A DNA stretch of 64,000 nt from Sipunculus nudus (taxonomy: Eukaryota; Annelida; Sipuncula; Golfingiida; Sipunculidae). A program made the translations under genes and the position numbers. The stretch lies in the NCBI GenBank assembly GCA_026874595.1, contig CM049312.1, positions 29,825,456 to 29,889,455 on the forward strand, read 5' to 3'. Positions within the stretch are counted from its first letter, which is position 1. Each line of letters opens with the position of its first letter. This document shows, piece after piece, positions 9,130 to 61,715 of this stretch. The notes beneath the pieces are model-generated. The model was given only the letters and a program-made list of their open reading frames with translations. It ran no database searches and was not told the origin of the DNA.

Positions 9130-30580
<21,451 letters not shown>

Positions 30581-35795: not shown

Positions 35796-36185
35796 TTATT
35801 CTGGGTCAAGAAGAAAGCCCAAGAAAGACGTCTCCGTATAATCACCACTGAGCACCACGGAATTAGCCCCACAGTGCATGTTCAAGAAGTCACCGGCCTC
35901 AAACCTCAGGATGGCAGATCTGCTTGTGGTTTTAAATGATTCTGAGGGTTTGCTGGTTATTCCGATCAGTCTGAGGTTACCATTCAGCATCAGGAAGTAG
36001 TCTGTTGTCGTATTAGCTCGGTTTCCTGCGCTGAGACTGACGTAATAGAGGCCGCTAACCGGGATGTACACCTCGTGATCTTCTTCCATCACAACAAAAC
36101 CATGGTCCACATTTAATTTAGATATCGGCAGCTTTTTTGCTTCCGTGCATTCGGTCGTAGAGATAATGAACGACCAGGCGATTGC
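35796..36185 (-). CDS. gene A exon 6: C1q-like domain 3 and C-terminus
   Basis: 390 nt including stop. [37 protein letters not shown] and [11 protein letters not shown] are C1q consensus blocks, the last being the usual C-terminal strand. Acceptor TTTTTCAG. Confidence 0.9.
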   Translation of the reverse strand, partial: AIAWSFIISTTECTEAKKLPISKLNVDHGFVVMEEDHEVYIPVSGLYYVSLSAGNRANTTTDYFLMLNGNLRLIGITSKPSESFKTTSRSAILRFEAGDFLNMHCGANSVVLSGDYTETSFLGFLLDPE

Positions 36186-39100
36186 CTGAAAAAAAGTTAA
36201 GCAGTTCTATTTGTTTGCAAAATGAATCAAATATAGCAAATTATTGTGATTAAATCTCAGTGAAGAAATAACAATTTCAAAGGTAGGCCATAGTTAAATA
36301 TTGCTAGCTATTACGCTATCTTTTCTATAGAATTTATATAACTTTCGACTTACTCTGCATACCTATAGGTAAGCTCTAGGTAAAGCTTGTCAACAAACGA
36401 TCTTATTACGTCTCTCTGACGGATGTATGAGCTTGTTTATCTACAAACTGTTAGTAAACAGTTTTTTTAATATGTTTGGATTATTGCAGCGCCCCACATA
36501 TTATAAACACGTAGATATAAATACAAAGAACACCTTGTGCGCGGTGTGGCCTGCGTTTTGTGGCCTATTATTATCAAATATGTAATCGATAATGTTCAGG
36601 TATCAGACGACATATAACGGGATAGGCCCTTTCATGTAGAAAGAAGTGACAATGAACAAAAAATATATATATGTAAATGTTGTATAAAAAAAGAAAAAAG
36701 CAAATAAATCATCGACGACAAAGAGAGAACATCGGATTATAACATGTGTTTGTTTTATCATAATGAAAATAATATAATATTAAAATATTAAAAATATTAA
36801 AAATTATAAAATAATAATAATAAAAATGATAAATAAATAAAAAAAAATAATAAATAATATACTTTTCCAGAAGGGAAGATGTGAATCGACCGTTCATTAA
36901 GAGATGTATCTGGCTAAATGACTATATGTATTCTGAAATAAACTCTAGTCATTATTCATCGAACAATAAAGCAAACAATGTTAGTTGCTTGCAGGTTGTA
37001 CAAGTAAGATGGGAATTATCTGCAACATGACCACATACATCATACCAAGTTTGTTAGGACATTTCATGTCCATCTTTCGACAAATTCCAAACTACCTTGA
37101 TTTCTCCAGTAACAGCAACACTTGTATTTGTGAAAGACTGAATCTGACTCTCAATATTAGCATTTCATTTTAAAAAATTGTACACAGGGTGTGTGGTTTA
37201 ACCTTTTTGTGCAACGACTATAGCTACAAAGCTGGGTAGGAGAACATAAATTTTATATAACTTCAGTAAAGAAACTAGAATACGGGTAGTCGACAAGCGA
37301 CTACGTGTATCCGCCTAAATCAGAGTGGAACGGGTGAAGTGAGGCATGGATTGAGTGGCAAGGGGAAATAGAGTGAAGTGTTGCATATTAGCGTGGATGT
37401 CTGCAGCCAAATTGTGTATGTAGGTTGCGCCACCTACCACAAAAACCAGAAAGCCGTCCAAGTTGTATACATATGCAAAATTAAAGGCAGATAGGTCAAA
37501 CCACTACATGTATATGAGTGATTTTAGCCCACGACAGACAAACAGATGGACGCTGTGCAAAAATGGTTCCAGTTTTGTGTATGATAAAGAGCTATGTGAG
37601 AACTATACACATGCAAAACTTTGGCCCAATCGGTCAAACGGTTCCCAAGATATGAGCTTGGATGTCTGCTGCATAAACTAGAATGTAGGTTGCGCCACCT
37701 GTCATAAAATCGAAAAAGCTATCCAGGATGTATAAACCTGCAAAATTGTTAGCAGATATGTCAAATCACTGCCAAGATATGAGTGATTTTATCCCATGGC
37801 AGACAAACAGACGGACGCTGTGCAAAAGTGGTTGCAGGTGGCGCCACCATTTTTAGTGTATTTTATAAAACTATCCAAGGGCTACATTTGTATAAAATTT
37901 TTAGCCTGATCGGTTAAACGGTTCCCAAGATATGAGCTTGGATGTCTGCAGCGTAAACATGAATGTAGGTGGCGCCACCTGTCATAAAATCAGAAAAGCT
38001 ATCCAGGATGTATACGCATGCCGAATTTCAGGTGAATAAGTCCAACCAATGCAGAGATATGACTGATTTTATCCCAAGGCAGATGAACAGATCGACACTG
38101 TTCAAAAATGGTTGCAGGTGGCGCCACCATTTTTTGTGTATTTTATAAAGCTATCCAAGGGCTACATTTGTGTAAAATTTTTAGCCTGATCGGTCAAACG
38201 GTTCCCGAGATATGTGGGTTTATGTGTCGAAACATACGCACAAACGGACGCAGAGCGCAGAGGAAAGGTCAGAGGTCAAAACAAAATCGGAGCGCAGCAG
38301 TTTACATGTGACCCGAAAATAATCCCGGGTTTCGTAAAATTCCGCCCAGCGGTTACGGAGGAGTTCTCCGGACACCTACGCGGCGGCGGCGGCGGCCAGC
38401 TGAAAACATAGTATCCGCAAAACTCTGTTTTGGCGGATACAATAAGAGCAATTACTGGAACAGCATGTTTTTTACGGCTTGATGTTTCACAAAATCCACA
38501 GCACAGATTCTAATTTCTCCTCACCAGATTGTGTTTTGGATTATACCTGAATCCCGACATACGTTCATCATCTGTCCAACCATACCAGCGCTGGGCAGTA
38601 ACTATATCCTGTGCTTCCAGCTCAAGCAGAAAGCAACGGTTTGCCGTTCCACTTCCCATAAACGTTTGTCCTTTTCTCCGAATGATTCCCCCTTTTAGTA
38701 CCGAATTTACTCTGAGCTCTCTGGTTGCATTAATGTCGGCCCGCCATACGAAAGACAAACAGAGCAAGTACACGCCTTGAAACGGTATTGTGTAGGAAGT
38801 TGCGCTGCCATCTACTGGAAGCATCTGAAAAAAAAACCCCAAAGATTCACGTATCATTATCAGCACTCCATTCGCAAGATAGACAGAAAGTAAACACTTT
38901 GACTGACTACTGAAGATAGGCTTTCTGAGATATTTGGAAAAAATGTCTCCCTTTTGTGAAAATTAAATGCTAGATCTAGCTTTGACTATGAGCCCGATGC
39001 CTTAATATGGACGAAGCAGAATATACATTTTAAAGGATTTGTAATTATCGATAGGTGGAGATATTTGTTTTTGACAATATTATCAAGAGCAATGTTATGC

Positions 39101-42100
39101 CTATTCTTTCACACTATCTGTATCAGTTCAGTTTTTCTTTATACAAAAGTTCCTCAGCAAAACCATCCCAACACAAAGCCTCAATACCTCGCATACGGCT
39201 GTTTAACACCTTGTTATGGCTTTGCGTGTTTGTAAACACAGTCCACGTGTGTCTGGTTACCATAGCAAGGCCGGGTAACCAGATGTCCACGTGTGTCTGG
39301 TTACCATAGCAAGGCCGGGCAACACACGAATTTTCAGCCAGCGTGAACATGTTATACATTTTTGGGCCAGGTCAGGGCATCTCATGATTGGCAGGTGTAG
39401 TGGCTCAGCGATGCATGGAGTCCCACGCGCTGTGTTTATGTTGACACCTTTGATCGCGCACGTCCACTGTTTTAACACTCGTTTACAGGAGAAAGCAAAC
39501 GGTTTCAGGGCAATGTTTTGGCATGTACAAAATTTATGGGAAGAAGCTATTTTTCGTGTTATTTCAGCATGCTTTATTTGGTGATTGGGACCCTTAAATC
39601 GATTACTGTTTAACCTTATTTCATTCGAATATGGCCGCCCTTATTGACACACAGTCTAAAATAAAGATTGTAAAATAAACCATTAAAAAACTCTGAAAAT
39701 AAAATACACATTTACCCCGAATAATTCCTGTTACAATAAAGTAAAGAAACGACTTCGCAAAGGTACGCAATGGCAACCACATTTCTTGACGTCCAATTTT
39801 CCTGGTTTCCTTTGTTCAGTTACTTGGCATTTCGATCTAGAATACCAGTGAATAAATCTGGGCAAAGGTACAGCAGCTTTATTTCGGTACGCTTGACTGA
39901 CCACTGCTGACACACGGTGACGCAGTGATTTCCAAATCTCAGTACCCGAGACAGCAAAACACGGTACCCTAGACTTCCAAATCGAGGTAACCGAGATTTT
40001 TGAACGTGTGTCAAAAAGCACTCCGTTCGTACATACCCTGGATGTATCTTACGATGGGGCAATTATTTTGAACTACTTTCAGGGACCTTGAACTGTTCAA
40101 TTTTTTTAAAGTGCATATTTTTTCAGAATTGTAATGTCGACATTCGTTTTATATAAACAGTGACAGACATATGGATAAAAATGCTGTAGCAAATCAGGTT
40201 CCTAACATTTCTATGACAAAATATTTGATTTCACTCATGCGGAACCATACGTGACTCAGCACTATTTTGTAAGGCTACCTTTCCTGATAAACCAATTATC
40301 CATTTTAGACTTTACAGACGTGTCATTAACCATGTAGGAGCGCTGTATCAAGTTTAGTAGCGATATCTTTTATAGTTTTTGAATAATAAGCACATTATGA
40401 AAAATGTTACGTCATAAATTTCACCTCATCTATAAAAAAGCGAAGGAACGACCATTTTATTTCACCTCATCTATAAAAAAGCGAAGGAACGACCAAATTT
40501 TATTTTTCTCCAAAGAACTATACTTAATATCAGTGGGATTACAAAAAATTGTAAAATCGGGCGCCGGCCGTGGAGAAGAGGAAGGGGGTGGGGGGGGGGG
40601 GGGGTGGTGGGGGGGGGGGGCGGATAGGTAGAGATCCGTGACTGTCGTATGACATTTACAAGAAGTCCTGTATTATTTTGCTCTCTGGGTTTCAGCCAAA
40701 CTCTGTCGCTAAAATATTGGAAATACATCGTTTATACTCAAGGATGACAACTGGTCTTTATGAGACGCATGCTTTATAAGATTATAAGTATTTTGTGCTT
40801 AAATGATTTTTATTAAACCTATTTTATTTAACCTATTTTACATTTCTTAATAAATAAAAATGAATAATAAATAATAATCAGAATTACCGTTATTGTTGGT
40901 CCAAGAAGATCCATCATGTTAAACACGCTGAATGATATCAGATGTTTGTCGTCACTGTACAGTCCCTGGGACAAGCTGTGAACCTGCAACACGTCACCCT
41001 GTACCAGCCACACGATGGCCTCACGGCTCATCACTTCTACCTGGCCACTTGCTGCGTAAGTCTGTGTCAGGTTCACCAGGGGACCACCGTTTCTGACCAC
41101 GTTGCAGCTGACGGTTTTACCAGGCAGGTTTCCGACACTGAGACTGATCAGATAGAATCCATAAGAAGGGACCCGTAACTCATTCTTATTTTGATCCCAC
41201 AGGCCATGGACAAGAAGCTTGTTGAATGTGACAGGTGCCTGGGGAGTTGTGATGCTGGTATCGAGCGCAACAGAGGTACAGGCAATATCTAAAACCAAAC
41301 ACATACCGTAGTACTCTTATTAAATAATAGGTCGACTTATGCTCCTTCTACGAAAGCAAAATAAGACCTTTTATTCAATTGGAGTAATATCGTGGTTGCC
41401 TTTTGTAAGGGAATATTTCACTTTCGCAAAACACGCGAAAGGGATGTCATTGCGAAAATAAAACCTCCGTGAAAAAAGAGACATTATCGTCGAAGACAAA
41501 ACCGAAAGACTGGTATCGAAACGATACATCGTTTATGTAACCCCTTAATGTAAAGTTGCTATAATAAAATAAAATATCAGATCTTGCAAATGATTTGACA
41601 ATAAAGAGCAATAATTCCGGACTGGTTCGATATTCCCTTGTGTTCGTCTTATTTTAAGGATTTTATAAATATTGAAACTAATTAATTAATAAAATATTCT
41701 ATCTGTATGTTATTGTAAGGTGTCATCGTGAAAATGAATTAACCCTTGCGAAAGTAAAATCGCGAAATATCAACTTCCCGATATTAAGCAACCTCTACAG
41801 CTTTGTTCAAAATCATCATAGCATGGTAACACTTTAAGATAAGCTGTTCTATATACAGGTAAAGATAAATTTAGGCATATTCAATGGAGGGAAGCTTTCT
41901 TAAGCATAGAGTGTACATAATTTTGCAAACTTAGCTCAGGGATACTTCAAAGGCTGCAGTATACGAGTTTATTGGAAAAAGGTCAATTATCTGAATCATT
42001 AATTTTTTTAATGGACAGCAAAATTGTGCAAATTAGCACAAGTGAACAGATGTATAACAACGTGTGACGTGTGAAAATTCTACAAACCGCTTCTGGTTTT

Positions 42101-42183
42101 GTCCTAATGCCTAATTAAGTAAACGGGCGATAAATGGACGGTAAATTTCCGTTTATAATAATACTAATAATACTAATAATACT

Positions 42184-42236
<53 letters not shown>

Positions 42237-45200
42237 TAATGATTGCATTACATTCAATCAGACAAGGAAATTATTCGTTAGATGGGTATTTAAGCCGGGG
42301 AAGTAGCATTGTCAACTGATAACGAACGGAAAGTGAATATCAACTGTAAAACATTACCTGTACATGTCTTGCCGTCACCCCCGAGGTAACCATGTAGACA
42401 TTGGCATGAATAAGAACCCACCGTATTTACACAGAGGCCAGAGCAGTTGCCGTTGTTTTCAGAACATTCGTCAATGTCTAAATGAAGAGTCAGAGACCAG
42501 GTAAAATGATATATATCAAATATTCACGTAAGACAATAGACCATGTTTTCTATAAATCTAATCGTTTATTTTTCTAAATTGTAACAGTAGATCCAATAAA
42601 GACTGAGAGATTAAATTCCCGCTAAAGTCAAGTGGATTTCGCTGGTGCTTTGTCGACAATAATTCTTACTTTGCCCTATCTAACTGTGTTATGAGCTATT
42701 CAATATGTAAGCTGGAAGCTATCAATAGTCATATCATAAAATTTATCACTGTACCGGTACATTCAGGTCTGTTGTTTGCCAGTTGGAACCCATGCAGACA
42801 TACGCACCGGCCTACAAAGAAAGAACAAAGCTTTTACCATACTTTATCCTCCCTGTGACATTTACTGGAAAGTACCTTAGAAGACAACATATATTATAGG
42901 AAAAAGCCATACAGAAATGATGAATGTAAAGTTTCTTTCCTTTTAGTTTTATACATAAAAAACAAGAATATTAACTGCATTATCCTAGTTAGCGTGCCCC
43001 CGTGTGTACACAATATAACTACTGTAATCATGAACGGAATATCATGAAAATTTCAGGGAAGTTCGGGAACGGGCAATGTAATAATGGTTAATATCGTGTT
43101 TTGGACCCGGCACATGATACGGATCCAGGAACGTCATCCATGAATATTCACAAATGTACAGTTAGATATCCACGAATGAATGTGGCAATATGGGCCGAAT
43201 ATGTGAATGCAAACATCCCTTTAGGGAGCCTCCCACAATAGGGACCTAACACATGGCGGATGTTAACATTCCATAGAATGCAGATTTCTTGTTCAAAATG
43301 GAATGGAAAAATATTAACTTTTAAAGAAACGTGGCATTTACGGTTCCTTTGTTCATATAAATACGCTTGGTTTTCATCTGCATGTCATTCAGTATCTTAA
43401 AACTGTACCAACCAGCAAATCATTCTATTGAAATAAATAGCGACATTATGCTTTAAAAGTAATTTGTACATCAATTGTATTAGTTAGATGCGATAAAAAA
43501 GGAAGGTATACATTTTACTTGACTTCATAAATTAAAGTGTAAACATAACTTCTCCCCTATTTGCATTAGAGCCTTAATCAACTTTGCGTGTGACGAGCAC
43601 CGTCCCGAATAAAGGTGAACCTTATTGTTTCCAATTTATCAAATCACATATGCATTACTGGTGGATCTAACACAGTTGGTAGGTGGTAACAACATACAGT
43701 GGAGGCGGCAATAACGACCACGATAGCAACTGGACAATGTGGTAGTAATTGAGGGCGCTGATGGTGGAGTATTTATGAACATCTGTCTAAATATTGGTAG
43801 ATCTGGCCCATTAGAAGAACGGATAGTTTGCTAGTGGTGAAACAATGTTGTTTCTAGGTTTCCTAAACGTCAGTTACAGGAATAAGGAAAATCAGATGCA
43901 TTCGTTTAGACATAAGAGCGAATCTCTGATGAAACCTGATGGAAGCTTTTCCCGCCATTTTGCTTATCAGGCTGTGTCGGGGAATCAAGGGACCTTCACC
44001 ACGTAAGTCCAACCCCCCAAACAATATATTGTCTTACCATAATAAACCTTTTGAGTTGGAATGTCAATAATTTATGCTGACATTCATTCGTTAAGGGGAT
44101 CGTTTGATATGGTTGCACATAAACACCCGCAAGCATATAGAATTATTTTATAAAGGTAATCTGTTAACAGTTTCCCAAGGTAATGACAGGTTTTATTGTC
44201 CTAAATGTGGCGAAAACTATCAAAAGATCCTGCTAGGTAACGCCCAGCATGTTTCCATGAGGCAGTTATTAAAGCTAGTCCATGCTTAGTGCAAGGCGTT
44301 TTCATATCAAAAGGCCAAGGGACTGAAGCTGCTAATGATTCTGGCCCTCCCAAACCAGAATAAATAGCAGGGGACCACAGCCAGCAATCTTTATTATTCA
44401 TCTATATAACTAGTGCACGCCATTTTACAGAATAAAAAGTTATCCTTGCGTGTTTAGTTCATGTTAGCTGTGAGAATTATATCAAACCCGAATCATACGA
44501 TATATTACTCATGAGAATGCCCTGATTAAAAAACCGAATCTCCGGATGTGAAGTACAATGTTTATGCTACATAATATGATTTGAAGGTACCAAAAATTTG
44601 TTTTTGAATATCCAGTGTCGCATTATAAAATTGATGGTAAAGAAGAAGAAAGAGAATGCACGTCAATGAGAATGATTTAGCTATTGGTATTGAAGTGCTT
44701 GATAAATATGTTGGTGAAACAACTACTAGAAGAATTATTCAGATGAATTGAAATTTTAATATACAGAACATAAAGAGAGACATGGCGGAAGAAATTTCAG
44801 ATTGAAAGAATACGCATAAGAGTTCAGATTAAACGGGAAAGAGTTATGGGAAGAATTAGTAGAATATATAAATAGTCCTGAAAGAACCCCTAGTTTTTTT
44901 GTACCGGGTTATCATAAACCGTACAATGAAAAGAATTTCTTGCAAGAGGCGCCACATAAAGGGATGGGGACAACAAGTATAAACTGATTTATCTTTGGAA
45001 CAATGTATTGATTATGAAATTAAAGAAGAGTTCATGAAGCATATTCACAAATCTATTTTGGACCATATATCAAAAAGCAAATATTACTCATGGAACCGCT
45101 TTATTAACAGATGCATATCTTGAAAATCTTTTACCCTTTTTTCCGACTTGGAATCCCAAGCAAAAGTTCCAGAGTAACTTCTACACAGAGGAATAAGCGT

Positions 45201-47786
45201 TAGTAGGGTAGGACGTAAAAGTAGACTAGGTTAAAGAATGGAAAGATGTTTCCAATTTAAAAGAAAAACGAGAAAGTAAATGTTGCAGCTGTTTTCGAAA
45301 AGTAACTTTTTTCCCAAATGACGGGATAAACTGTTGAAGAAAATAAAAATCAAAGGGGTTTATGTCATGCTGTTTGTATAAGTTACCCCAGTAGCAGCGA
45401 CTTAATTCAATTATTGCCGTTTATTTAAAGGGTATTCACGACAAAACAATGTCCTATGTCTGATTACACAATAGCTCAAAATCTAGTCTGGAGTTACACA
45501 GGCATCATGAAGTTAAGGCCACAACGTTTCCCTGACAAGATGCAGAAAAAAGTGCAGAACAGCTTTCCCCCCTCAGAAACCTTGATAAGTCGGGGTTATG
45601 TGCCTCAGATTCCTTTACTCAAATACCCCAACGAAAGGGAACGGAGATACTCAGTTTTGCAAGTGTTAACTTATAGCGGGGGATGTAGGGACGAAAAAGA
45701 CTATAGAACATTCCTATTGACAGGTAGTTTTTATGATGTCAAATCATTTTGTAAAACCTGTTAGGCAGCTGGAACGCTGGACCAGAACGTACCACAGTTG
45801 AAACACTTGACCAGAAAATACGAAAGTTGGAACGCAAGACCATAAAACACGAGCCAAATTCAAAATTATTGAGTTTCTATATTTTCTATTCGCCAAAGAA
45901 TAAAAAGATCACCAATACATTAACGAATATATGGGCCAAGACGAATAAAAGGCCGTGGTACGATTCCTAACAATTGACAAAATATGTAAAGCCTTATGAT
46001 TAATCACAACAATTTTTTAATTTTATTTATTCTGTTAACTACTCCTTTGTCGCAGTTTATGATATTAATTTACGAGATTCATCTCCTACAAAACGATCTC
46101 CACCATGGCCTATTCCATATTGTTGAAAATAATTAATTGGAGATGACAGAAATGCTGTTGTCTCCACATTGCTGTATTGAACTTAAGTTGCCGGGAGAAA
46201 CCAAATTAGTGGTATCTTCTTCTGATGGATTGTTTTAGAAAATACACCCACGACTTCCAAGATGCTTGGCTAGTTGTGATTGCTATTTTGTTTTTGTTTG
46301 CATTGGTACTTCTCCGGATCACCTACACAGTTTAATGAATATTAATATGAACTACAATATGAATATCTTGAATATTATGCTCATCCTCTGAGTAACCAAT
46401 ATAAAACACAAGGCACCTTTACAAAATGCCTTACAGTACATTCCCACTTAAGCCCATTAATTTTCACTGATCATACAGAAACAATAACTCTTGGTTTCAA
46501 CCAAGAAAACTATTTAATTTCTCTATTTTCACCACATTTCCGTTGATACTTGCATTTTGACTGTATAATCCAATTTATTCGATTAATGAGAGGATGCTTG
46601 TGTTTTGTACAGGTTACTCAGAGGATGTGTACATAATTTATTGTGTGACGATTTTGCACTCGGGAGGACCTGAAACAGTCCACCTCCAAAAAGGTTAAAT
46701 CCAAATATTTATATAGAAATAAACTAATCAAGCCCGTAATTAGGAGAAGCTTCATAAAAGTATCAAGAAAGAATCAAGTAACCGAACTTTTGTTTTTGCT
46801 TAATTGTATACATGTAATACTATGTTTATGTGCAAAAATTGCAAAAAGAAACCTCTGTAAAAAGCTTGAGTGATTTTCGATATGGGATATTTCTATCTAT
46901 ATTTTTTTAAGGAAGTAGATATTCAAATTCTTGAATAAATTATATTAATTAAATTACAAATATACAATAATATTATGTGAATTATGAAATGTTACTCATC
47001 ACAAATATTTATATAATGGTTAAATCCAAATATTTATATAGAAATAAACTAATCAAGCCCGTAATTAGGAGAAGCTTCATAAAAGTATCAAGAAAGAATC
47101 AAGTAACCAAACTTATGTATTTAGCTTATTTGTAAACGTATATGTTTATGTGCAAAAATTGCAAAAAGAAACCTCTGTAAATAGCTTGAGTGATTTTCGA
47201 TAGGGGATATTTATATCTATATATTTTTTTAAGGAAGTAGATCTTCAAATTCTTGAATAAATTATATAAATTAAATAACAAATATACAATAATATTATGT
47301 GAATTATGAAATGTTACTCATCACAAATATTTCACAATAATGCACCCTGTTTAAAAGAATATTTCTGTATGCAATTTAAAAATAATGTATCCAAGAGAGT
47401 TTTATTCATAAATGTATTTTTAAGCTGTTAAAAACTAATTTATGTTAAATGTAAAAACAGATACAAAATATTTTACCTTTATCATGAGTGACCTTTACTT
47501 TGATCGATTCTTCACTAAAACCAAAGCTGTTTATCTCCTTTAACAGGAGACAGACTTCTTTCCCTTCCAGGTTTCTTTCTTGATATCCTTCACAGTCGTG
47601 CAGGTTGGCACATTCATGGGGACAAATCCCGCGGTGAAAACTTGGTATAGTTTTTATGATTTTTCCCGTTGTTTTTAAGTTAGTTTCTCTGAAGGTTTGC
47701 TCACATACTAGGCCAACAACGCAGGCTTGTCGCCATAAGCCAAGAAAGAGCGTAACTAAAACCGGGAACGTGCAACGAAACGCCAT
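35796..47786 (-). CDS. gene A: secreted PAN-EGF-triple C1q domain protein, six exons
   Basis: Minus-strand gene; exons in transcript order 47477-47786, 42755-42811, 42358-42477, 40888-41288, 38525-38824, 35796-36185 (1578 nt, 525 residues plus stop). Every junction is GT-AG and phase-compatible (1,1,1,0,0). Residues 1-25 or so are a signal peptide. Residues 40-100 form a PAN/apple-like module with spaced cysteines. Residues 104-122 are the end of an EGF-like module, 123-162 a calcium-binding EGF (DIDEC...GSYSCQC), and 163-525 three C1q/TNF-like jelly-roll domains, one per exon. No collagen stalk. By analogy with bivalve C1q proteins it is probably a secreted recognition molecule; ligand and role are unknown. 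Gene B is its neighbour and paralogue. Confidence 0.8.
36186..37305. other. gene A intron 5, part
   Basis: AT-rich. Positions 36360-36560 resemble 56750-57010 and 62480-62750 (GTTTATCTAyAA, TTAGTAAACA, CCTGTGTGC-like words), suggesting the larger gene unit was duplicated and then eroded. A low-complexity TAATAA tract lies at 36770-36860. Confidence 0.4.
37306..38441. mobile_element. 1.14 kb TIR element with palindrome-bearing tandem units
   Basis: Ends are TGTATCCGCC... (37306) and ...GGCGGATACA (38441), about 20 bp of imperfect inverted repeat. Inside are units of about 265-281 bp starting at 37420, 37685 and 37965. Each starts GTAGGTKGCGCCACC; the palindrome GGTGGCGCCACC also recurs mid-unit near 37837 and 38117. 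The right end can itself form a hairpin (GTATCCGC ... GCGGATAC, 38410-38441). No ORF of note; intron 5 of gene A. Confidence 0.72.
38525..38824 (-). CDS. gene A exon 5: C1q-like domain 2
   Basis: 300 nt, phase 0-0. [37 protein letters not shown] and MSGFRYNP mark a more diverged C1q-like jelly roll. Acceptor TTTTCAG, donor CTG/GTGAGG. Confidence 0.82.
39241..39325. repeat. short tandem duplication, 44-bp period
   Basis: GTCCACGTGTGTCTGGTTAC and the following CCATAGCAAGGCCGGG occur twice, at 39241 and 39285. Confidence 0.85.
40421..40505. repeat. short tandem duplication, about 42-bp period
   Basis: TTTCACCTCATCTATAAAAA followed by AGCGAAGGAACGACC is present twice in succession. Confidence 0.85.
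40576..40622. repeat. poly-G tract
   Basis: Near-continuous G run with a few Ts on the + strand in intron 4 of gene A; a possible G-quadruplex and a likely sequencing weak point. Confidence 0.85.
40888..41288 (-). CDS. gene A exon 4: C1q-like domain 1
   Basis: 401 nt. Blocks [49 protein letters not shown] and LISFSVF follow the C1q jelly-roll strand pattern. Phase 1 in, 0 out; donor ACG/GTAATT. Confidence 0.88.
41289..42357. other. gene A intron 3
   Basis: AT-rich with a TAATAC run leading into a TA microsatellite at 42189-42233. No other feature. Confidence 0.5.
42189..42233. repeat. TA microsatellite
   Basis: TA dinucleotide run preceded by ACTAATAAT trinucleotide-like units. Confidence 0.95.
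42358..42477 (-). CDS. gene A exon 3: calcium-binding EGF domain
   Basis: 120 nt, phase 1-1, encoding six cysteines with [12 protein letters not shown] and [11 protein letters not shown], a calcium-binding EGF signature. Acceptor TTTAG, donor ACAG/GTAATG. Confidence 0.9.
42755..42811 (-). CDS. gene A exon 2: short EGF-like half module
   Basis: 57 nt, phase 1-1, encoding [18 protein letters not shown], the C-terminal loop of an EGF fold. Acceptor TTTGTAG, donor ACCG/GTACAG (weak). It could be skipped without frame change. Confidence 0.7.
44104..46335 (+). pseudogene. decayed ORF patches of unknown origin in gene A intron 1
   Basis: Several coding-like stretches on the + strand, opposite to gene A. 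44104-44289 has a zinc-ribbon-like CPKCGENY. Around 44780-44985 a frame reads as plausible protein ([20 protein letters not shown]) between stops. 45456-45764 is an uninterrupted 102-codon ORF starting MSDYTIAQN. 46225-46335 is a 36-codon ORF with a single strong membrane helix ([15 protein letters not shown]). I recognise none of these. They could be the remains of one large mobile element or chance ORFs. Confidence 0.25.
46693..47330. repeat. tandem duplication, about 325-bp period
   Basis: Two near-identical units, 46693-47017 and 47018-47330, both starting GGTTAAATCCAAATATTTAT; they differ at scattered bases. In intron 1 of gene A. Confidence 0.9.
47477..47786 (-). CDS. gene A exon 1: signal peptide and PAN/apple-like module
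   Basis: ATG at 47786. A hydrophobic signal ([12 protein letters not shown]) precedes a module with [17 protein letters not shown] and [10 protein letters not shown], the cysteine pattern of PAN/apple folds, which bind carbohydrate or protein. The exon is 310 nt and leaves phase 1 at AAAG/GTAAAA. The paralogous exon at 60 kb has the same length from its corresponding ATG. Confidence 0.85.
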
Positions 47787-50148: not shown

Positions 50149-50541
50149 TTATTCACCTGGTTGAATAAGAAAACCTATAAGAGAAGTTTCCTCTAACGAG
50201 CCGGAATGAACATCCGAGTCTTGGCCACAGCGAAGGGTTAGGCGATCTCCTGACTTAAAAGCCAAGATTGCAGATCTGCTCAAAGTATTGTAATGCCCTG
50301 CGGGTGTACGTGTCAATCCAATCAAAGGACAAGCTTCATTCAGAACCAAAGTGTAATCTAATGCCATCAGTCCGGAGTTTCCACCACTGAGATGGACGAA
50401 GTAGAGGCCACTGACAGGGATGACGATGGTGTTCTCTCTCTGCAACACTACAACGCCACGGTCCACACGGATTTTGGGAAATGTCAGGGTTGTCGATGCC
50501 TTGCACACCGTTGTTTCAACGACAATAGACCACGCTACAGG
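50149..50541 (-). CDS. gene B exon: C1q-like domain 3 and C-terminus
   Basis: 393 nt with stop: VIPVSGLYFVHLSGGN, SRSAILAFKSGDRLTLRCG, TSLIGFLIQPGE. Acceptor TTCCTTAG. Homologous to gene A exon 6 but clearly diverged, so the gene duplication is older than the nearby segmental duplication. Confidence 0.9.
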   Translation of the reverse strand, partial: PVAWSIVVETTVCKASTTLTFPKIRVDRGVVVLQRENTIVIPVSGLYFVHLSGGNSGLMALDYTLVLNEACPLIGLTRTPAGHYNTLSRSAILAFKSGDRLTLRCGQDSDVHSGSLEETSLIGFLIQPGE

Positions 50542-53500
50542 CTAAGGAAAACGCATGCCTTCATAAATAAAACATTTGAATAAAAAATTATTACAGTAAG
50601 TGTTATATATAATATATATTAATTCCCTGTTTTTCCATTTTACGTCCGTGGCCAGTGTCTAGCATTTGTTGTTTAATAAATTTGAATGTAATAAATAATA
50701 AGGATTTCTATCCAGGGAACAATGTATGACTGTGTTATTCAGTGTATAATCGGCCAACCACTTATGTAAGCCCAAGCACACGTGATACGACACGTCTTTT
50801 AAGGTCCATACCAAAGCCCGTAGACGATATGGCTTTGATTGTATCTATACACTCAGTATACTCAGTGACACAACGACCCGGAATGAAATCGAAAAGCTTG
50901 ACAATTCGTGTGACGTCACTGTGTTCTGTGACGCATCGCACAGAAATTGACAACATACTGGGACCCACGTGGCTGCGTGTGTGCACTGTTAAGTGTTTCA
51001 TTTGAGGAATAGTTACTTCGTGAAAATAGAATGTATACGGTTGATTGGTTTGGTAACATGCGTGGCCGTTTAATGAAAATATATAAACCGGCTTGTTCGG
51101 CATTGGCCTTCGGGCAACCCGATCGTCCATTGGCCTGCGAGACCAATACGGACGGCAATACCAAACAAGCCGGTAATAACATATTACATTCCTTTGGTTT
51201 CCTTAGCTTTAATCACTTGTAACTTATAATCTTTTGGCGCAGACAACCAGAGAATTTGAAATAACACATGATTCCCATTCGGATTGGTCAACTTACCGTT
51301 GACCTATCCGTGCCATAACTGGTTAGAAATCTTCAGAAAAATTTGTACAAAACGCGGACTTTTTTTACTTCACATTTCACATCAAACAGAATACTTATTT
51401 ACGGCAACGATGTGTATAACCACCTAAAAGTACAAATGAAATAAAAAAATCCGAATTGAAAAAATAAAAAGAATGACACAATACCAATACAATTCTATAC
51501 TAAAATCAGAAGATATTCTGTTACCTGAGTGCTGACCGGGCTGTACATAAAACCCGAAAGATTTACGTTTTCTGGCGAACCATTATAAATGTTGAGCTCT
51601 ACAGGATATTGTAGTCCCACCTCCATCAGAAAGCAGCGGTTGGCCGTTCCGGTTCCGGTTGTTTCTGCAGGTCTATGATATCGAAGCATACCCTGCATAA
51701 CATTATGTACATTTATGAACTCTGACGCGCCCGTGTCAGCTTTCCATAGAAAGGACATGCACAGAAAGTACACTCCTGTCTCCTTGGGAACGTACTGGGA
51801 AGTCCTACCGGTGAGCTGTATGATCTGAGACAAAAAACAAAAAACCTTCAGACTATTTTTAAAGGCATTAGATCAGTTGATATTTTTTAAATATTGGCAA
51901 AATCACAGGGGCAGACTGGCCCGCCGGAACAAGGCGAAGTTTCCAAATGGGGCGACGGCATAAATAAAATAGGATAAGATTGATGTCAGTTGACCGATGA
52001 TCCTTAAATTTAGCTGAGATGTTATATCAAAGTATATGATAAAAGATAACAATTTAGCAAAATTGCAGAAATGTGACAAAAGTCACTTATTCTAATATAT
52101 TCTATATATTTATTTCCAGTATATTCTGATGACTAGCTTCGGCAGGGTAGTTTTACCACGGGGTTTGGTCCAACGAGATTGCTGATGCTGAACACACTGA
52201 ATGATATCAGCAGTTTGTCGTCACTGTACAGTCCTTGGGACAAGCTTTGAACCTGCAACACGTCACCCTGTACCAGCTCCACGATGGCCTCACGGCTTAG
52301 CACTTCTACCTGGCCACTTGCTGTGTAGGTCTGAGTCAGGTTCACCAGGGGATCACCGTTTCTGACTACGTTGCAGTTGACGGTTGTACCAGGCAGGTTT
52401 CCGACACTGAGACTGATCAGATAGAATCCATCAGAAGGGACCCGGAACTCATTCTTACTTTGATCCCATTGACCATGGACAAGAAGCTTGTTGAATGTGA
52501 CGGGTGTGTGGGGAGTAGTGATGTTGGTGTCGAGAGCCACAGAGCTACAAGCGATGCCTGAATAAAAAATATTCCGTAGATGAAAAGAAATAAATTGCAG
52601 ATCAAAAATACAATGAAAACACCATCACCAATACCTAAATAGGAACTTCGCCGTATAGTGAAGGTAAATTTTATTTAAATCTATCAATTGTAATAGGGCA
52701 ATATTTGATCTTTTTTTTTGTTACGGGCCCGAACAATCGGTGTGCATGTCACCGACAGATGTCTCTATGCAAGAATGATGTATAGTCTTTAAGCGCTTAG
52801 CAGGTAAGACCTTGTAACACATTATAGGTCTCGGAAGAACCAATTTCAAAGCAAGTTTGGAAAAGAGAAGTGTAACTTTACATGTGTTAGTCTTCATTTC
52901 ATTCAAGGCGTATACTTTTGGACACACAGGTGAGTAGACACACGTGTGGGAACACTCTCCATTTTCTTCGGAATATTCGTCCATGCCTGAAACGAATTTT
53001 GTTAATATATCCAATCCTATATGTTATGTAAGGTCATCTGGGACTGAATGTTATAATGTTATCTTTATTATCACATGAAGAAAAGAATTATCATGCCTTT
53101 TGGCGTGGATATTTTTTTTTGGTGAATCAACAAGAAGTCATCCCTTAATTCAGTGGTCTTTGTGTTGTTCATATGTAATACATCATCGGATGGGGGTTTG
53201 GACAGTCGAGTGGCAAAACGCTCGGCCTTCTCCGCTGGCGCCCCGGGTTCGATCCCCGGAGTTGTCATGAGAGCGGGTTGTGGTGGCCTGTCCAAGTACG
53301 TGGTTTTCTCCGGGTGCTCCGGTTTAAGCAATTTACTGCCGAACGCCACCATCCAACCATTTTTAGGCTGTTAAAAAATTATCTTTGTTATCTTCTTTCC
53401 TGTAATTTTTCAAAGTGTAATGTATTTGGTCTCGAACAGCAAATTAAAAAAAAACCTACTGAAGTTAAAGCTTCGCCGGTCAACAGATATATTTATTTTT

Positions 53501-56500
53501 TACCTGGTCTTATTTAGAAGTTATGTCTTCTTATATTAATTTGTATAACATAAATAATGCCTGTAATATTATGAAATTTATGGAAAAAATATTTTTACCC
53601 ATAAGTTATTATTAATAATTATGTAGTGATTGTTTATAACAACCAAGATTTCACCAATATTCCTGTTGCACCAATGTTGAGGCACCGGCTGTTTTCAAAC
53701 CAGATATCTTTTGTTCGTTAAACATTAAACTACGTTCACTCCCCAAAATCACATACTCACCTCCAATGCACTTGGACATCTTGTTCTGGCAGGAACAATG
53801 ACCTGATAAAGAAGAGACGTTTTTATTATGTCACCCTATTTGCACGGTAAACATTGTTACGTTACAAGGAAGGTTGGAGAATGTAAACTAAAGCCATATT
53901 CATGCGAACAGAACAGGTTTTGTGATATATTTCCCATCAAATTTGAATAAAGAAAATGCCGCTCAGAAGATGCCCAATTCTTCAACCCATAACCTAGGCT
54001 TCACCTGTTTTTGAAGGTATTTTGCTGATCCTCCTGTCATTAAGATATGTTTTGTTGTGTACTCTACATTATAAAACTTAGGAGAACATACGTCTGTTCT
54101 GTTGTCAGCATTTTACTGTCTATATGCCGGTGTCTATGTGCCGGTACCTCATGTGTACAAATGTCGGGTTTGACAATGTGAATTTATTCGAAGACAAATT
54201 GCTCAGGGGAAAAGACTGGACCGATCCGGTATTCGAATCCCATGTCGGTGGCGCTCAAGTCCGGCGTACCAACCGCTTCGATAGCAAAGCAAGCTTCACT
54301 AGCGAGACAGTTCGGTTCGCTTTTCTGACACACCGTAGCATACCCCCTCTTAGGAGCGTTCTGCTATCAGAACAAGATTAATTATTCCAGGAGTCACACT
54401 TTGGTGAGCTTATTCCCTGGGCCACAAAGTTTACGTCACGTTGGACGAGTCCCCATTTTGTTACGAAGACAAATTATTCAGGGGAAAATATCGGGCCGAT
54501 CCGGGATTCGAACCTATAACGGTAGCGCACAAGTCCGGCGTACCAACCACTTCGCTAGCAAAGCAGGCTTAACAAGCGAGACAGTTCGGTCCGCTTTTAT
54601 GTCACCCCGTAACACACTCCCTCTTAAGAGCGTTCTGCAATCAGAACAAGACTAATTATCCCAGGAGTCACACTTTGGTGAGCTTATTCCCTGGGCCACA
54701 TAGTTTACTGTCACGTTGGACGAGCTCCGATTTTGTTATGAAGACAAATTGCTCAGGGTAAAACATTGGGCTGATCTCGGATTCGAACCCATGTCGGTGG
54801 CGCTCAAGTCCGGCGTGCCAACCGCTTCGCTAGCAAAGCAAGCTTCACAAGCGAGACAGTTCGGTCCGCTTTTATGTCACCCCGTTACTGTAGACACTGT
54901 AATAGATATGCTAAAAGATGAACAACGTTTGTAGTAAAACTGATCAAGAGCAAACCACTTCAAGGATCAAGATCCGATTAAATATTGCATTATGTCCAGT
55001 AAATCTTCATTAATCAGGATAAAGGACTCATAGGATAAGTTTCATTATCATTCATTGTATCATACAGAGAATTAAAAATATAAAAAAGTTATTTAATTCG
55101 TACCCTTTTTTTCAGCTTGACCTTTACTTTAATTGTTTCATTGCCAAACTCTGCCCTGTTTATCTCCTTCAAGATGAGACAAACATCTTTTCCTTCACGT
55201 TTTGTTTCTTGATATCCTTCACAGTCGTCAAGGTTGGCACATTCATGTGCACAGATCCCGCGGTGAATCCTTGGAATTGTCTTTATGATTGTTCCAAGTC
55301 TTTTCAGTTTAGTTTCCATTAAGGTTTGTGAACTTCCCTTGTTAACGGCATATGCCTGTCGCCATAACCCAACAAAGAGCATCAGTAAAACTAGGCGAAA
55401 GTAAAGAACCGACGTCTTGACTTGCAGCAACAAGCGTGCTGCATGGACCAACTCCAGCCACCCGAATGGCATTGTTTTGTGATCACGTGACTTTTTTTTA
55501 TCCAAATAACAGCGCTTTTTACAGGAGAAAGGGTTTGTTCATTTTATAAACACAAACGTTACCATATCAGCAGACTAAAACAAAGACCAATGTGTCAATC
55601 TGAGATAAAATACCTTACCAGCATCCGTTGGGTACCCAATATTAGGATTGTATATGGTATTTTTATGATATTTTTAATGTTGACTTGGCAACCTGGTAAA
55701 CAAACCGTTCGCTTAACTTCTCACCTTTTTTTTTAGAAAAAAAGTATGTTTAATATTTAATTCTAATCGGGAAGATCCGTGGGTGGATGTGTTTTAAATA
55801 TGGCGAGTGGATAAATGATGATGCTGATGAAAAGAGACAATTCCCCTGTGCATCACTAAAATGGATTCGAAATGGCACCAGAAACAAATTAAGTCTGTAG
55901 CAGGTGGAATGATTTTTTTATTGTTGTACTTTGGGAGTTCGGAAAATAACAGCAATATAAATGGATATAAGATATTACAGCAAAATTTCGCACCTTTTTA
56001 TTTTGTTCTGTTCGAGGTAACCGCTCAATTTTTTAAATGCTAACTTAACTACGTATATGTACATCTGCAGAAGTCCATTCCGGTTTCGGACTACGTGACA
56101 GGGCAGTATCACACGCTTCCTCTCATTATATATCCGGTGACTACTGCACCTGCGGGCCCTGGGTGCGTAATCGTCCCCATTGATGGGTCATGCCACCGAG
56201 GAACCCCGGAAAGTCGCACTTGTTTGTAAATGTTGATTAGAGTTATGCACTTGAACAATGGTATAATGTAAGATACATTTGTTGATTTCAGCCACTCTGT
56301 GGGGAACAGTCAGAAATGAAAACAATCAAGTTAAAATTTATTGAATTTCTTTATAAGCCCTTACAAATAACCTTACAATTTAAGCCCTTACACTTAATAA
56401 TAATAATAATAATAATAAATATAATAATAATAATGTACTCATTGCGGAATTTTACGATCGCATGGATTCTATTAAGGTTATCAGCTTTTAAAAGTTGGCT

Positions 56501-57702
56501 GCCAATGAATGGAAGAGAAGATAAGACTAACCGTTTTATAACCAAAGATAGTACGACAAAAGCGGAGACAAGTTTTCCCCCCATAATTTTGTTAAGCTGA
56601 GTATCTCACTGTTGGCACTGTTTTTTTTTTTGCAGGCCTACTGTTTCATGTTTCCTCACAAGATGAAATAAAGCTATCCATTTACTTACGCTTTCTGCAG
56701 AAGTTATGTGATTTCTGGCTAACCCTCATTGATAAACGGATTTAGGAAACGTTTCTTTAAACACCTCTGTGACAAATGCATAAGTTTGTTTATCTATAAG
56801 CTTTTAGTAAACACGGTACATACGCCTGTGTTGACAGACAGTAAAAATGTACCTTGTTGTTGAATATTTGATGAAATTGAAAGGTCACTAGGTGCAAAAT
56901 ACCCTTTGCAAGCATCTCGGCTGTTTAACTTAACGCAGGTGCCTTTATTAAATGTGTTTGAAATATTTAGTCAGTCCACCAAATGTTATCAGCACAAAAC
57001 GAACAGCCTGTGTGCCGTGGGATCGGCGTTTTCTTGCCTGTATTTATGAAATGTTCAAGGAATTATCTTAATTTTATATGCCCCTTTAAGACACGAAAAC
57101 ACGCAAATCATTCTCACGCCTGCTATTGACTTTCAATACTTCACTATATGAATTACTATTTAATGCATTATTTGAAAGTGATGGATTTGTGCTCAGAGCT
57201 CCACGCGATAACATGCGGTACCAAGTACGCCGTATTAGGCAAAAAGTAAGCCATTTCAGCCAAGCCAGAACAACTTTCATGCACGCACCTCCCCCCCCCC
57301 CCAACACACAAGGACTGGTATAATCGTTTTCTGATATGGCATTGTTGGCTTATTTTGGTTATTAGTTAAAACTTCTCTTGGATGCACATGTGTTGGACGT
57401 GCTCCTATCCTTATGTATGGTAGAGCGAAGATGAGACGCAAACAATAGAAGGTGCCTTCACAATTATCTTAAGTTACTCTGTTTATATGTTTACCATATA
57501 AACTTCTGGCTTGGGAAATAAGAAATAACTGTGTAATTCCAGGCTACGTTTTACCCGGCGTATTATGCCACAATAGGAGGTACGCAAATTCAGGTGAAAA
57601 ATTCAGGCAAAAAATACGACATATAAACTTTACATGATCACAAACACTCACTCATCTCCCATCCACTCACACCCTCACGCACCCTAACACACACACACAC
57701 CC

Positions 57703-57750
<48 letters not shown>

Positions 57751-60693
57751 TGAACTAGCGGATCATTGGCAATATTAACAGTGCGTTTTCAAGTATTTTT
57801 GGTTTATTTATTGTACTCATTGAATAAATGAACATGTAACCATATAAAAATGGGCAAACAAGGTGTCTGTCCCCGATACCGTGCGTATTTGACATCCGCT
57901 ATATACACAACCATCGGCGGATTCAGGGGAGGGGCCACTTCTATTTAAGTTTTTAAAAATTCTTGAAGATCGAACAACAGACGCGTAATACCGAAAAACA
58001 CACAAGATTCTTTGATTACAGCCTATATTTAAAACAAGTTTCGTTAACATTAGATATGGTATTCCCCTCAAAACCAGCTGCTCCCTAACCCCCCCCCCCC
58101 CCTTAGCGCTCCCGGCTCCACGCTATGAGAGCCAGCCCCTCTCATTCTTAAGTCCCGTCCACACTAGGGCCCTGCGCGGGCTAAAAAAATGAAACCCGCA
58201 TAATGCCCTGTCAGCCCGCAGCCCGCCCCGCAATCAAAGAAAAAAAATTCAGCCCGCCCCGCCCCGCAGTTCCTATAATTCTTTAAGCCCGCACCCGCCC
58301 CGCAAAATTTTTTTGTAGCCCGTACAGTCCCAGTCCACATATTTCAAGCTTCCGGCTTGCAATCCAGCCCGCAAAATAATAAAAAAGTGTACGGATCCAA
58401 AGGTTTACATATCAAAAAAATGTAAAACAAATAATTTTTATTCTTTATTAGCAATTATTTAAACCATAATTCATAAAATATTTTAAAAGACATGATTGAT
58501 TGCTTAAATGGATTTAATTTGTACATACTAATTTACCTCGCCTTAAACATGTTTTAGTATTTAACAGGGGAATTAAGCAACATTTAGATTAAGAATGCTG
58601 TTTCTACTTTAATTTATAAAAAAGGTAAAACAAATAAAGATTTCTTATGTGTACCCAAAGTTAACCTTGGGCATAGCATTGGCTAATCACAAGCCTAAGA
58701 TGTGTTTGCTGGTTAAAATCTTTTTAGTCAGAATCTGCTAATTAGCTGGAATGAAGACTAATCAGACGGTCAAGGGTTGAAAAAGGTAATCTGACCGAAT
58801 ATGGTCGATTTCGGCCGCCGACGATATCGGCCGCCGGCCTCAAATCGACCATATCGGCCGCCTGCGCACACCGGGCAACCTTTTCGGCCGCACCCCCGAC
58901 GATGCCACTGCTGGACCCTGACTCTGGTCAGTCAACCATATCGGCCGCGACTTGGGCGGTGGGGCACCATTTTGGCCGCCGGGCTAACTCATTACTGCAA
59001 ACACGGTTTCATCATAATTAGAATATCTTATTCAAGCAGAAATATGATGGACTAAATAAAAATATATATTCATTCAAAATATGATTAGTCATATTTACAA
59101 GAATAATGCGTAAGTAAAAATTTCAAATTACAACACATGTACTTGCATTGAATAATAAAGAACATTACTTTGTGCTGTATAGTTATAGTTACATATATAC
59201 TTTTATACTTTCTATGTTTATATATTAGTTATATATATGTGTGTGTTTGTGTATAATTGCTGCATTTCTAAATAACTGTAAACCGAACCGAATCCATTTA
59301 AACTTCACTTACTTGACCTGGTATACAAAGAGCACAGGCCTCTAAGAATCCAGCGGCTAAAGCTCTGTCCCGTTTCCCTGCTCGTTCATTTTTGTACTCG
59401 ACTGTGATAGTTGAAAAAAAACGTTTTGCATTTTCCAGGAGTAGCCCATTTTTTTATGTTTACTTTATAATTTGTTTGCAAGATGTTATAGTTTAGATGT
59501 TTAATTTATAGTTTTAAGACATAGTTGTATATATTTCGGGATAGAAAGTTTTCTGTTGTTACCTCTGTATATATAGTTATGATTTAAAGTTAGATTTCTT
59601 AATTGCAGTAATTTATATTTCGTTTGAAATAAATTAACACATATGTTATTTCTTTATTTATAATATATGTAAAAAAATTTATTAAAAAGATTTATAACGT
59701 TTTTTTGTTTATTTATTTCAGCTGTTTATTTCTCATTTTTTTTGTTTGAAGGTGTTTGTGGAAATGTGTACTGAAATATGTGCACTTATGTCATCATATT
59801 TGCACGGGAAACATTGTTACGTTATGAGGAAGTTTGGAGAATGACAAACACGTAAACAAAAGCCATATTCATGCAAACAGAACAGGTTTTGTGATATATC
59901 TCCTATCAAATTTGAATCAAATTGAAAATGCAGCTCAGAAGAAGCCCAATTCTTCAACCCAGAACCTAGGCTTCACCTATTTTTTTAAGGTATTTTGCTG
60001 ATCGCCTGTCATTAGGATATGTTTTGTTTGTATACGTACTTTACATTATACAACTTAGGAGAACATAGGTCTGTTCTGCTGTCAGTGTCTCACCGTCGAT
60101 CTGCCGGTGTCTGTGTATGGACATCTCATATGTACCAATGTCGGGTTGACAATGTGAAGACACTGTAATAGATATGCCAAAAGATGAACAACGTTTATAG
60201 TTGATCTGATCAAGAGTAAACCAGGATCAAGATCCAAATAAATGTTGCATGATGTCCTGTCAGATCTTCATTTATCAGGATAAAGGACTCATAGGAAAAC
60301 TGTCATTATCATACATTGTATCATACAGAGAATTAAAAATATAAAAAAGTTATTTAATTCGTTACCTTTTTTCAGCTTGACCTTCACTTTGATTGTTTCA
60401 TTGCCAAACTCTGCCCTGTTTATCTCCTTCAAGATGAGACAAACACCTTTTCCTTCACGTTTTGTTTCTTGATATCCTTCACAGTCGTCAAGGTTGGCAC
60501 ATTCATGTGCACAGATCCCGCGGTGAATCCTTGGAATTGTCTTTATGATTGTTCCAAGTCTTTTCAGTTTAGTTTCCATGAAGGTTTGTGAACTTCCCTT
60601 GCTAACGGCATATGTCTGTCGCCATAACCCAACAAAGAGCATCAGTAAAACTAGGCGAAAGTAAAGAACCGACATCCTGACGGGCAGCAACAT
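50149..60693 (-). CDS. gene B: paralogue with PAN module and three C1q domains
   Basis: Minus strand, upstream neighbour of gene A. Likely exons in transcript order: 60366-60675 (PAN, phase 1 donor), 53761-53802, 52157-52557, 51525-51824, 50149-50541, giving 1446 nt and 481 residues plus stop. Exon lengths of the first and of C1q domains 1 and 2 (310, 401 and 300 nt) are identical to gene A. An EGF-equivalent exon after 52986 is degraded and may be skipped; skipping keeps phase 1. A second PAN exon at 55.1-55.5 kb appears dead. The product would be a secreted protein like gene A without the calcium-binding EGF. The exon chain is inferred. AATAAA overlaps the stop codon on the minus strand. 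Confidence 0.65.
50542..51524. other. gene B last intron
   Basis: Open frames on both strands at 50742-51222 have no recognisable similarity. ACAAGCCGGT occurs near 51086 (inverted) and 51165, flanking a GC-richer stretch; this may be a small inverted-repeat element. Confidence 0.35.
51525..51824 (-). CDS. gene B exon: C1q-like domain 2
   Basis: 300 nt, phase 0-0: [42 protein letters not shown]. Acceptor TGTCTCAG, donor CAG/GTAACA. Confidence 0.85.
52157..52557 (-). CDS. gene B exon: C1q-like domain 1
   Basis: 401 nt, the same length as in gene A and highly similar ([41 protein letters not shown]). Acceptor TTATTCAG, donor GTG/GTAAAA. Confidence 0.88.
52867..52986 (-). pseudogene. degraded EGF exon of gene B
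   Basis: After acceptor CGTTTCAG the frame reads MDEYSEENGECSHTC, aligning with [16 protein letters not shown] of gene A, but the first cysteine is Tyr and the later GSYSCQC block is unrecognisable. The donor expected after 120 nt is missing, though the frame stays open for a further stretch to 52721. Confidence 0.6.
53190..53375 (+). repeat. tRNA-derived SINE, family 2
   Basis: A-box-like TGGCAAAACGC (53211-53221) and perfect B box GGTTCGATCCC (53246-53256), then a central segment GTGGTTTTCTCCGGGTGCTC similar to the conserved core found in several marine-invertebrate SINE superfamilies. ORFs across it on both strands are by-products. Confidence 0.75.
53761..53802 (-). CDS. gene B exon 2: short Cys-rich module
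   Basis: 42 nt, phase 1-1, HCSCQNKMSKCIG between a good acceptor (TTTATCAG) and donor (GGAG/GTGAGT). It corresponds in position to gene A exon 2 but is shorter and diverged. Confidence 0.6.
54182..54890 (-). repeat. tandem array of tRNA-derived SINE, family 1 (2.5 units)
   Basis: Period 275 bp, with units starting at 54189, 54464 and 54739 (the last truncated). On the minus strand each has an A-box-like TAGCGAAGCGG and B-box-like GGTTCGAATCC (unit 1 diverged) and ends TCTTCGTAACAAAATG. The paralogous locus near 60150 reads straight across the insertion point (GACAATGTGA/AGACACTG), providing an empty site. Open frames of 84-85 codons repeat with it and are not genes. Confidence 0.85.
55089..55505 (-). 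pseudogene. decaying second copy of the PAN exon
   Basis: More than 90 percent like 60366-60693 by eye, but both ATGs used there are changed (ATG to TTG/ACG), leaving only upstream ATGs that extend the N-terminus before the signal peptide. At the donor, a run of seven A instead of six and GGGTACGAA instead of GGTAACGAA break the phase-1 GT junction; the only GT available gives phase 0, incompatible with the next exons. The ORF itself remains open. Part of the segmental duplication. Confidence 0.7.
57692..57746. repeat. CA microsatellite
   Basis: ACACAC run, with CACCCTCACGCACCC-type degenerate repeats before it. Confidence 0.95.
58155..58385. repeat. GCCCGC-rich patch
   Basis: AGCCCGCCCCGC and variants recur several times in 230 bp (58210-58320), starting from GGGCCCTGCGCGGGCT. 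It resembles terminal sequence of a dispersed element, but no second end was found. Confidence 0.5.
58800..58985. repeat. cluster of TCGGCCGC motifs
   Basis: TCGGCCGC occurs about six times in 190 bp at irregular spacing, several preceded by CATA or GATA, with ATATGGTCGATTTCGGCCGC and its partial inverse AAATCGACCATATCGGCCGC. The patch is far more GC-rich than its surroundings. Open on the + strand for 84 codons (58801-59055) as a Pro/Arg-rich sequence, which I take as incidental. Confidence 0.6.
60366..60693 (-). CDS. gene B exon 1 candidate: signal peptide and PAN module
   Basis: Signal VLYFRLVLLMLFVGLW, then GICAHECANLDDCEGYQ and KGVCLILKEI. Two in-frame ATGs, at 60693 and 60675; the latter gives 310 nt, exactly as in gene A exon 1, and is preferred. 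Donor AAAG/GTAACG, phase 1, intact. Confidence 0.75.
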
Positions 60694-61404: not shown

Positions 61405-61525
61405 ACTCTTTGTGGAGGCCGACCGTAAAAAATGTCACCGCCTCGGCTGAAATTCGAACTGACGATCTCACGGCTTTGAGTCAAGTACTCTACCCCTGAA
61501 CCTGAGAGATCGGTTTCAATTTTGT
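61405..61525 (-). repeat. tRNA-like SINE fragment
   Basis: On the minus strand GGTTCAGGGGTAGAGTACTT (A-box region, 61483-61502) and CAGTTCGAATTTC (B-box region, 61449-61461) are spaced as in a tRNA. No closed acceptor stem, so I treat it as SINE-like rather than a tRNA gene. Confidence 0.5.
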
Positions 61526-61642
61526 ACTTGAAACAATCGTTTGTAATTGGACAATAAGTTGTCCAAACTCCTATTTTATATTTAACAAAAGGCATAGTTT
61601 TAACATACATGGCTCAGTTCCTATATATTAAGTATATTCGGT

Positions 61643-61648
<6 letters not shown>

Positions 61649-61712: not shown

Positions 61713-61715
<3 letters not shown>

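Follow-up and report, generated by a model that had tools for sequence, protein, structure and literature searches.

A predicted secreted, collagen-free protein with three C1q-type domains encoded by one gene of a tandem pair in Sipunculus nudus

We analyzed a window of 64,000 nucleotides from the sipunculan Sipunculus nudus (GenBank assembly GCA_026874595.1, contig CM049312.1, positions 29,825,456 to 29,889,455 of the forward strand), and we report here on a predicted gene, hereafter gene A, that runs from position 47786 to position 35796 on the minus strand of this window. It is probable that gene A is one gene of a tandem pair and that it encodes a secreted C1q-domain protein devoid of collagen. 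This protein would consist of a leader, a small cysteine-rich (PAN-like) module, an EGF module with possibly an additional half module, and a row of three C1q-type jelly rolls that differ from one another, and it would likely be a lectin-like recognition molecule.

The six phase-compatible exons proposed in the initial annotation are borne out by the sequence. The ATG starts at 47786, the stop codon ends at 35796, and AG and GT sites as well as an exact phase match are found at every junction, so that the joined exons encode 525 amino acids with a sole, terminal stop (Table 1). When the 57-nucleotide half-EGF exon is left out, the frame is still open and the product counts 506 amino acids. It should be noted that phase agreement by itself is weak evidence, a match by chance across four junctions being expected in about 1/81 of cases.

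A second copy of the gene, hereafter gene B, lies upstream on the same strand. The comparison of 308 with 336 minus-strand open reading frame pieces from the two loci gave 20 rows at E<=0.05. Six of them are in the frame of the genes and correspond to the leader (twice), an EGF remnant and the three C1q exons, whilst 12 are other-frame shadows of those exons and the two last ones are weak matches (E 0.002 and 0.048) of an intron piece with positions at 62.7 and 57.0 kb. The leader and the three C1q exons measure 310, 401, 300 and 393 nucleotides in gene B as against 310, 401, 300 and 390 in gene A, with identical phases and splice positions. Each C1q exon finds its best match between the two genes in its positional counterpart, and the order of the three C1q domains is therefore older than the duplication. 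The leader of gene A matches the window at 55391-55131 (copy B-PAN) and at 60651-60364 (copy C), with 64-65% at the amino-acid level. The EGF remnant of gene B gave one EGF-type Pfam match under its cut-off (E 0.07), and no convincing counterpart of the half-EGF exon was found in gene B. When searched alone, the last C1q exon of gene B matched C1q (E 0.0051) and BclA_C (1.8e-5), both under the cut-off. The product of gene B would thus comprise the leader and three C1q domains without EGF, that is 467 amino acids. This part of the window also contains a segmental duplication (53826-57688 and 59786-63427, in blocks 77-88% identical) that carries the leader/Cys-rich exon.

Table 1. Predicted exons and exon copies of genes A and B, in positions of the 64,000-nucleotide window.
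Feature	Position	Strand	Observations
Gene A exon 1: hydrophobic leader and Cys-rich (PAN-like) segment	47477..47786	-	ATG, GT donor, phase 0 to 1
Gene A possible exon 2: half-EGF (C-terminal half), 57 nt	42755..42811	-	AG acceptor, GT donor, phase 1-1, frame kept
Gene A EGF exon, calcium-binding type	42358..42477	-	EGF_CA 2e-10, splice sites, phase 1-1
Gene A C1q domain 1 exon	40888..41288	-	Pfam C1q 2.6e-7, 84% amino-acid identity to B, phase 1-0
Gene A C1q-like domain 2 exon	38525..38824	-	divergent with no visible strand A, phase 0-0, joint shuffle test
Gene A C1q domain 3 exon and stop codon	35796..36185	-	Pfam C1q 4.7e-6, 46% amino-acid identity to B, phase 0
Leader/Cys-rich exon C, probable gene B first exon (splice inferred)	60366..60675	-	ATG and GT donor present
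Second leader/Cys-rich copy (B-PAN)	55131..55391	-	ACG where C has ATG, donor displaced, probably decayed
Gene B degenerate EGF remnant, end undefined	52880..52986	-	38.8% identity over 49 columns, E 7e-4
Gene B C1q domain 1 exon, 401 nt	52157..52557	-	Pfam C1q 4e-11, phase 1-0
Gene B C1q-like domain 2 exon, 300 nt	51525..51824	-	phase 0-0, 35% amino-acid identity to A
Gene B C1q domain 3 exon and stop, 393 nt	50149..50541	-	46% amino-acid identity to A, Pfam below cut-off

The exons compared between the two genes are under coding constraint. The ratios of nonsynonymous to synonymous substitutions (dN/dS, Nei-Gojobori) are 0.32 for the leader (taking B-PAN, the B copy), 0.40 for C1q1, 0.22 for C1q2 and 0.23 for C1q3, the last two values being rough since dS is near saturation (3.0 and 2.0, respectively). 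The two C1q1 exons are much closer to each other, with a dS of just 0.21 and 353 of 399 aligned bases identical (amino-acid identities are given in Table 1). The introns flanking C1q1 align at 73-75% over 150 bases on each side; shuffled sequence gave 76% on the downstream side (mean of 50), the upstream value standing without shuffles. In blastn, the 88% identical block containing C1q1 reaches 23 bases into the upstream intron, and past about this distance no likeness of the flanking introns was detected. The similarity of the C1q1 exons could stem from gene conversion limited roughly to the exon, or from a later copying of the exon.

Domain searches were run on single exons and on the joined models, Pfam being less sensitive on read-through frames (up to 5000 amino acids) than on single exons. 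The EGF module was recovered on its own exon as EGF_CA, as were C1q domains 1 and 3, carried by the exons at 41.3 and 36.2 kb (Table 1). In the joined protein of gene A, C1q reached 3.6e-15 and BclA_C exceeded its cut-off (40.8 bits for a threshold of 38); the joined models of both genes each contain two Pfam C1q stretches. Two cEGF stretches were also found in gene A, one of which we take to be the half-EGF exon. The search of five exons against NCBIfam returned nothing beyond matches far under the cut-off. A profile built from C1q domains 1 and 3 of both genes matched adiponectin (2.9e-20), cerebellin-1 (5.4e-15) and C1q (6e-11) in the PDB. In each of these top matches the chain holds several C1q copies and is hit in two or three stretches, and the single-domain chains begin with collagen X (4.1e-7); the caprin-2 head was matched as well. 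Judging from chain length, we presume that the matched entries 5hkj and 4dou are the engineered single-chain molecules C1q-scGR and single-chain adiponectin. Neither a Gly-X-Y run on direct reading of the translated 525-residue model nor any collagen family at E<=1 was seen. The EGF module and the absence of a collagen region announced by the initial annotation are both upheld.

Several results nevertheless weigh against our reading of gene A. The C1q2 exon gave no Pfam match at E<=10 in either copy, and none of the three leader copies matched PAN or any other Pfam family at E<=10, PAN being likewise absent from the matches of the joined protein. The AlphaFold2 models of these two exons of gene A are poor, with a mean pLDDT (predicted local distance difference test) of 51.7 for C1q2 and of 44.6 for the leader, the latter model being unusable. 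The EGF module is not conserved across the pair, only its remnant being left in gene B. Finally, the search for a homologue of the whole architecture in a protein database returned none, its 10 matches all being annotated with EGF families and none with PF00386. No match was found there for the C1q part of gene A (2486 candidates) or for its leader with the half-EGF (43 candidates), in a search that requires shared 5-residue words and that distant relatives may escape.

When the C1q2 exon was compared with the other C1q exons, its summed score was reached by none of 500 joint column shuffles, even though three of the eight pairs do not stand out when taken singly. hhalign gave a weak match (E 0.016, probability 2.9), and the fold search yielded weak TNF/C1q matches, the top ranks of Foldseek being occupied by cereblon and other unrelated chains. 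We propose from the shuffle test and these weak fold matches that the domain is C1q-like. Of the three jelly rolls put forward initially, domains 1 and 3 are thus recognized by Pfam, whereas the middle one is C1q-like by the joint shuffle test. The exon encodes only 100 amino acids in which the counterpart of strand A is not seen; the domain is divergent and seems to be trimmed at its N-terminus, without its first strand. By splice criteria, the gene B intron, of which 329 of 332 bases were covered, holds no separate exon for this strand; the gene A intron yielded six weak candidates, none of them C1q-like by eye, which were discarded. By sequence, the exon alone matched nothing in the PDB at E<=10. 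The profile of the A/B pair retrieved three unrelated chains (E 1 to 1.5), which were not retained, and when C1q2 and C1q3 were joined, the matches to C1q chains were located in the C1q3 part.

As for the leader exon, its N-terminus is hydrophobic after the ATG according to the hydropathy profile, and the product of gene A is predicted to be secreted. This hydrophobic start is followed by five cysteines in copy A and four in copy C, with a C-x3-C-x5-C spacing. In PAN and apple modules, the central cysteines are spaced approximately as C-x3-C-x(4-8)-C-x-aromatic-C. A pattern of this type, drawn up with these exons in view, occurs in the three leader exons and in two further places of the window read in six frames. 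Compared with one plasminogen PAN domain, copy A does not score above its shuffles (z -0.94, 1685 of 2000 reaching its score) and copy C is marginal (z 2.25, 64 of 2000), this comparison covering A and C. The PAN/apple module of the initial annotation is therefore not established, and we call the segment PAN-like by its cysteine spacing only. The leader exon alone had no PDB match by sequence at E<=10; its profile matched LptF (E 0.024), which we regard as a chance match.

Could the exons of gene A belong to two or more genes, either a leader/Cys-rich/EGF gene followed by a separate multi-C1q gene, or a tandem of single-C1q genes? Such an organization would accommodate the 4.7-5-kb intron after exon 1, the reduction of EGF in gene B, and the in-frame ATGs that C1q1 and C1q2 have shortly upstream in their unspliced frames, and C1q genes are often arranged in tandem in bivalves (PMC6835236). 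However, the leader exon ends in phase 1, which is compatible with EGF and C1q1 in gene A and with C1q1 in gene B. Moreover, C1q2 seemingly lacks strand A with no candidate exon for it in the gene B intron, and the paralogue has the same C1q exons, in the same order and with near-identical lengths. Separate genes, as well as a chance assembly, are unlikely because the leader and all three C1q exons recur in the paralogue, where their phases, splice positions and lengths agree with those of gene A, at dN/dS of 0.22-0.40. The initial annotation had mentioned that transcripts could assign the PAN/EGF and C1q exons to separate genes; the tandem paralogue, by its C1q exon order, lengths and phases, speaks against this. 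It is very improbable that the locus is decaying, with gene A or gene B on the way to becoming a pseudogene. In gene B the broken leader copy and the residual EGF, and in gene A the half-EGF exon, would agree with such a decay, but the frame is open throughout gene A and in every C1q exon of either copy, the splice sites are in place and the coding sequence is constrained.

Considering gene A as a single gene, we compared its predicted product with known proteins. The initial annotation knew of no described family with this arrangement, yet the triple C1q tandem without collagen has already been described. HcC1qDC6 from Hyriopsis cumingii, a protein of 444 amino acids encoded by at least five exons, consists of a signal peptide and three C1q domains without collagen (PMC5519582, PMC10672478), and its three domains bind lipopolysaccharide, peptidoglycan and bacteria (PMC5519582). 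It resembles the gene A product by its three C1q domains and the lack of collagen, but its domains count 136, 136 and 139 amino acids as compared with about 100 for the middle exon of gene A, and the term EGF is absent from the portion of its description consulted (PMC5519582). Three C1q domains are also found in CfC1qDC-2 from Chlamys farreri and in HcC1qDC5 from H. cumingii (PMC10672478). Proteins of this kind are thus familiar from the immunity of shellfish. In Crassostrea virginica, 21 smultiC1q genes encode mostly three C1q domains, and chromosome 8 carries 14 of them in one tight cluster; these proteins occur with or without a coiled coil, and neither a PAN nor an EGF module is mentioned in the portions of the Results and Discussion covered (PMC6835236). 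With at least two C1q domains per chain and no collagen tail, the predicted product of gene A could belong to the smultiC1q class, and that of gene B likewise has at least two C1q domains. In molluscs, C1q also has other N-terminal partners, namely SUEL domains (oysters) and immunoglobulin-like domains (gastropod QREPs) (PMC6835236, PMC10672478); an expansion of C1q in the pearl oyster and single-C1q proteins in rotifers have also been reported (PMC4759782, PMC8878817). Multimerin-1, of the EMILIN/Multimerin family, shares with gene A a calcium-binding EGF-like repeat and a C-terminal gC1q (PMC13326518). Unlike gene A, it has an N-terminal EMI domain, a long coiled coil and a single gC1q, and no EMI family was detected in the joined model of gene A at E<=1. 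A combination of PAN or apple with C1q was not found in searches limited to the open-licence literature, nor was a description of the PAN-like/EGF front. Gene A differs from the known triple-C1q proteins by this front end, by its seemingly trimmed middle domain and by the neighboring duplicate copy.

By analogy with these proteins, the C1q heads of gene A would recognize glycans of microbial or self origin, or other ligands on surfaces, possibly in an immune role, and the Cys-rich/EGF front would mediate partner binding or oligomerization. The sequence leaves a link of about five residues between C1q2 and C1q3, and there is almost no linker between domain 1 and the trimmed domain 2; the three domains are therefore most likely close together. 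We tentatively raise the possibility, without favoring it, that they fold together as an intramolecular pseudo-heterotrimer, a natural single-chain C1q trimer head. In addition to the short links, the dissimilarity of the three domains (27-30% between C1q1 and C1q3) would be in line with this idea. On the other hand, strand A of the C1q fold belongs to the sheet that makes the trimer contacts, so a regular trimer may be disturbed by its apparent absence from domain 2, and the C1q domains could pair between chains instead. A parallel can be drawn with C1q-scGR and single-chain adiponectin, which share with gene A three C1q domains in one chain; C1q-scGR was designed after the adiponectin construct, and with linkers of three residues its structure is almost that of the native head made of three chains (PMC4774423). 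Unlike the gene A product, both are man-made, with complete domains and neither a PAN-like nor an EGF front.

The apparent absence of strand A from domain 2 could either favor or impede such packing. A more specific and rather doubtful hypothesis would be that domain 2 has no first strand so that domain 1 joins it directly, the three non-identical domains forming an obligate intramolecular trimer without collagen or coiled coil, on a PAN-like/EGF stalk. Within the pair, domains 2 and 3 would diversify and domain 1 would stay similar, perhaps through exon-confined gene conversion. If the domains do pack together, one natural chain would amount to what engineers made for C1q and adiponectin, and its three faces would be distinct and fixed in order, and the gene pair would allow one to ask whether single-chain heads replace oligomerization through collagen or coiled coils in large C1q repertoires. 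If they do not, gene A would be one more domain-shuffled C1q lectin, which is ordinary for expanded C1q families.

The window contains some further features. Tandem repeats lie in two introns of gene A, at 46693-47332 (period of 322 bases) and 37629-38214 (280 bases), and at 54189-54885 (275 bases), in the interval that separates the leader copy of gene B from its EGF remnant. On the plus strand, an exon at 29219-29554 matches a high-affinity choline transporter in the PDB (1.9e-19), the SSF family being slightly under its cut-off. We assume that the segments 12121-12531 and 30017-30580, neither with a Pfam match, belong to the same choline transporter gene, which would perhaps span 12121-30580. 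On the minus strand, pieces with RVT_1, Integrase_H2C2 and SCAN matches occupy 17935-23232 and presumably represent a Ty3/gypsy-like retrotransposon.

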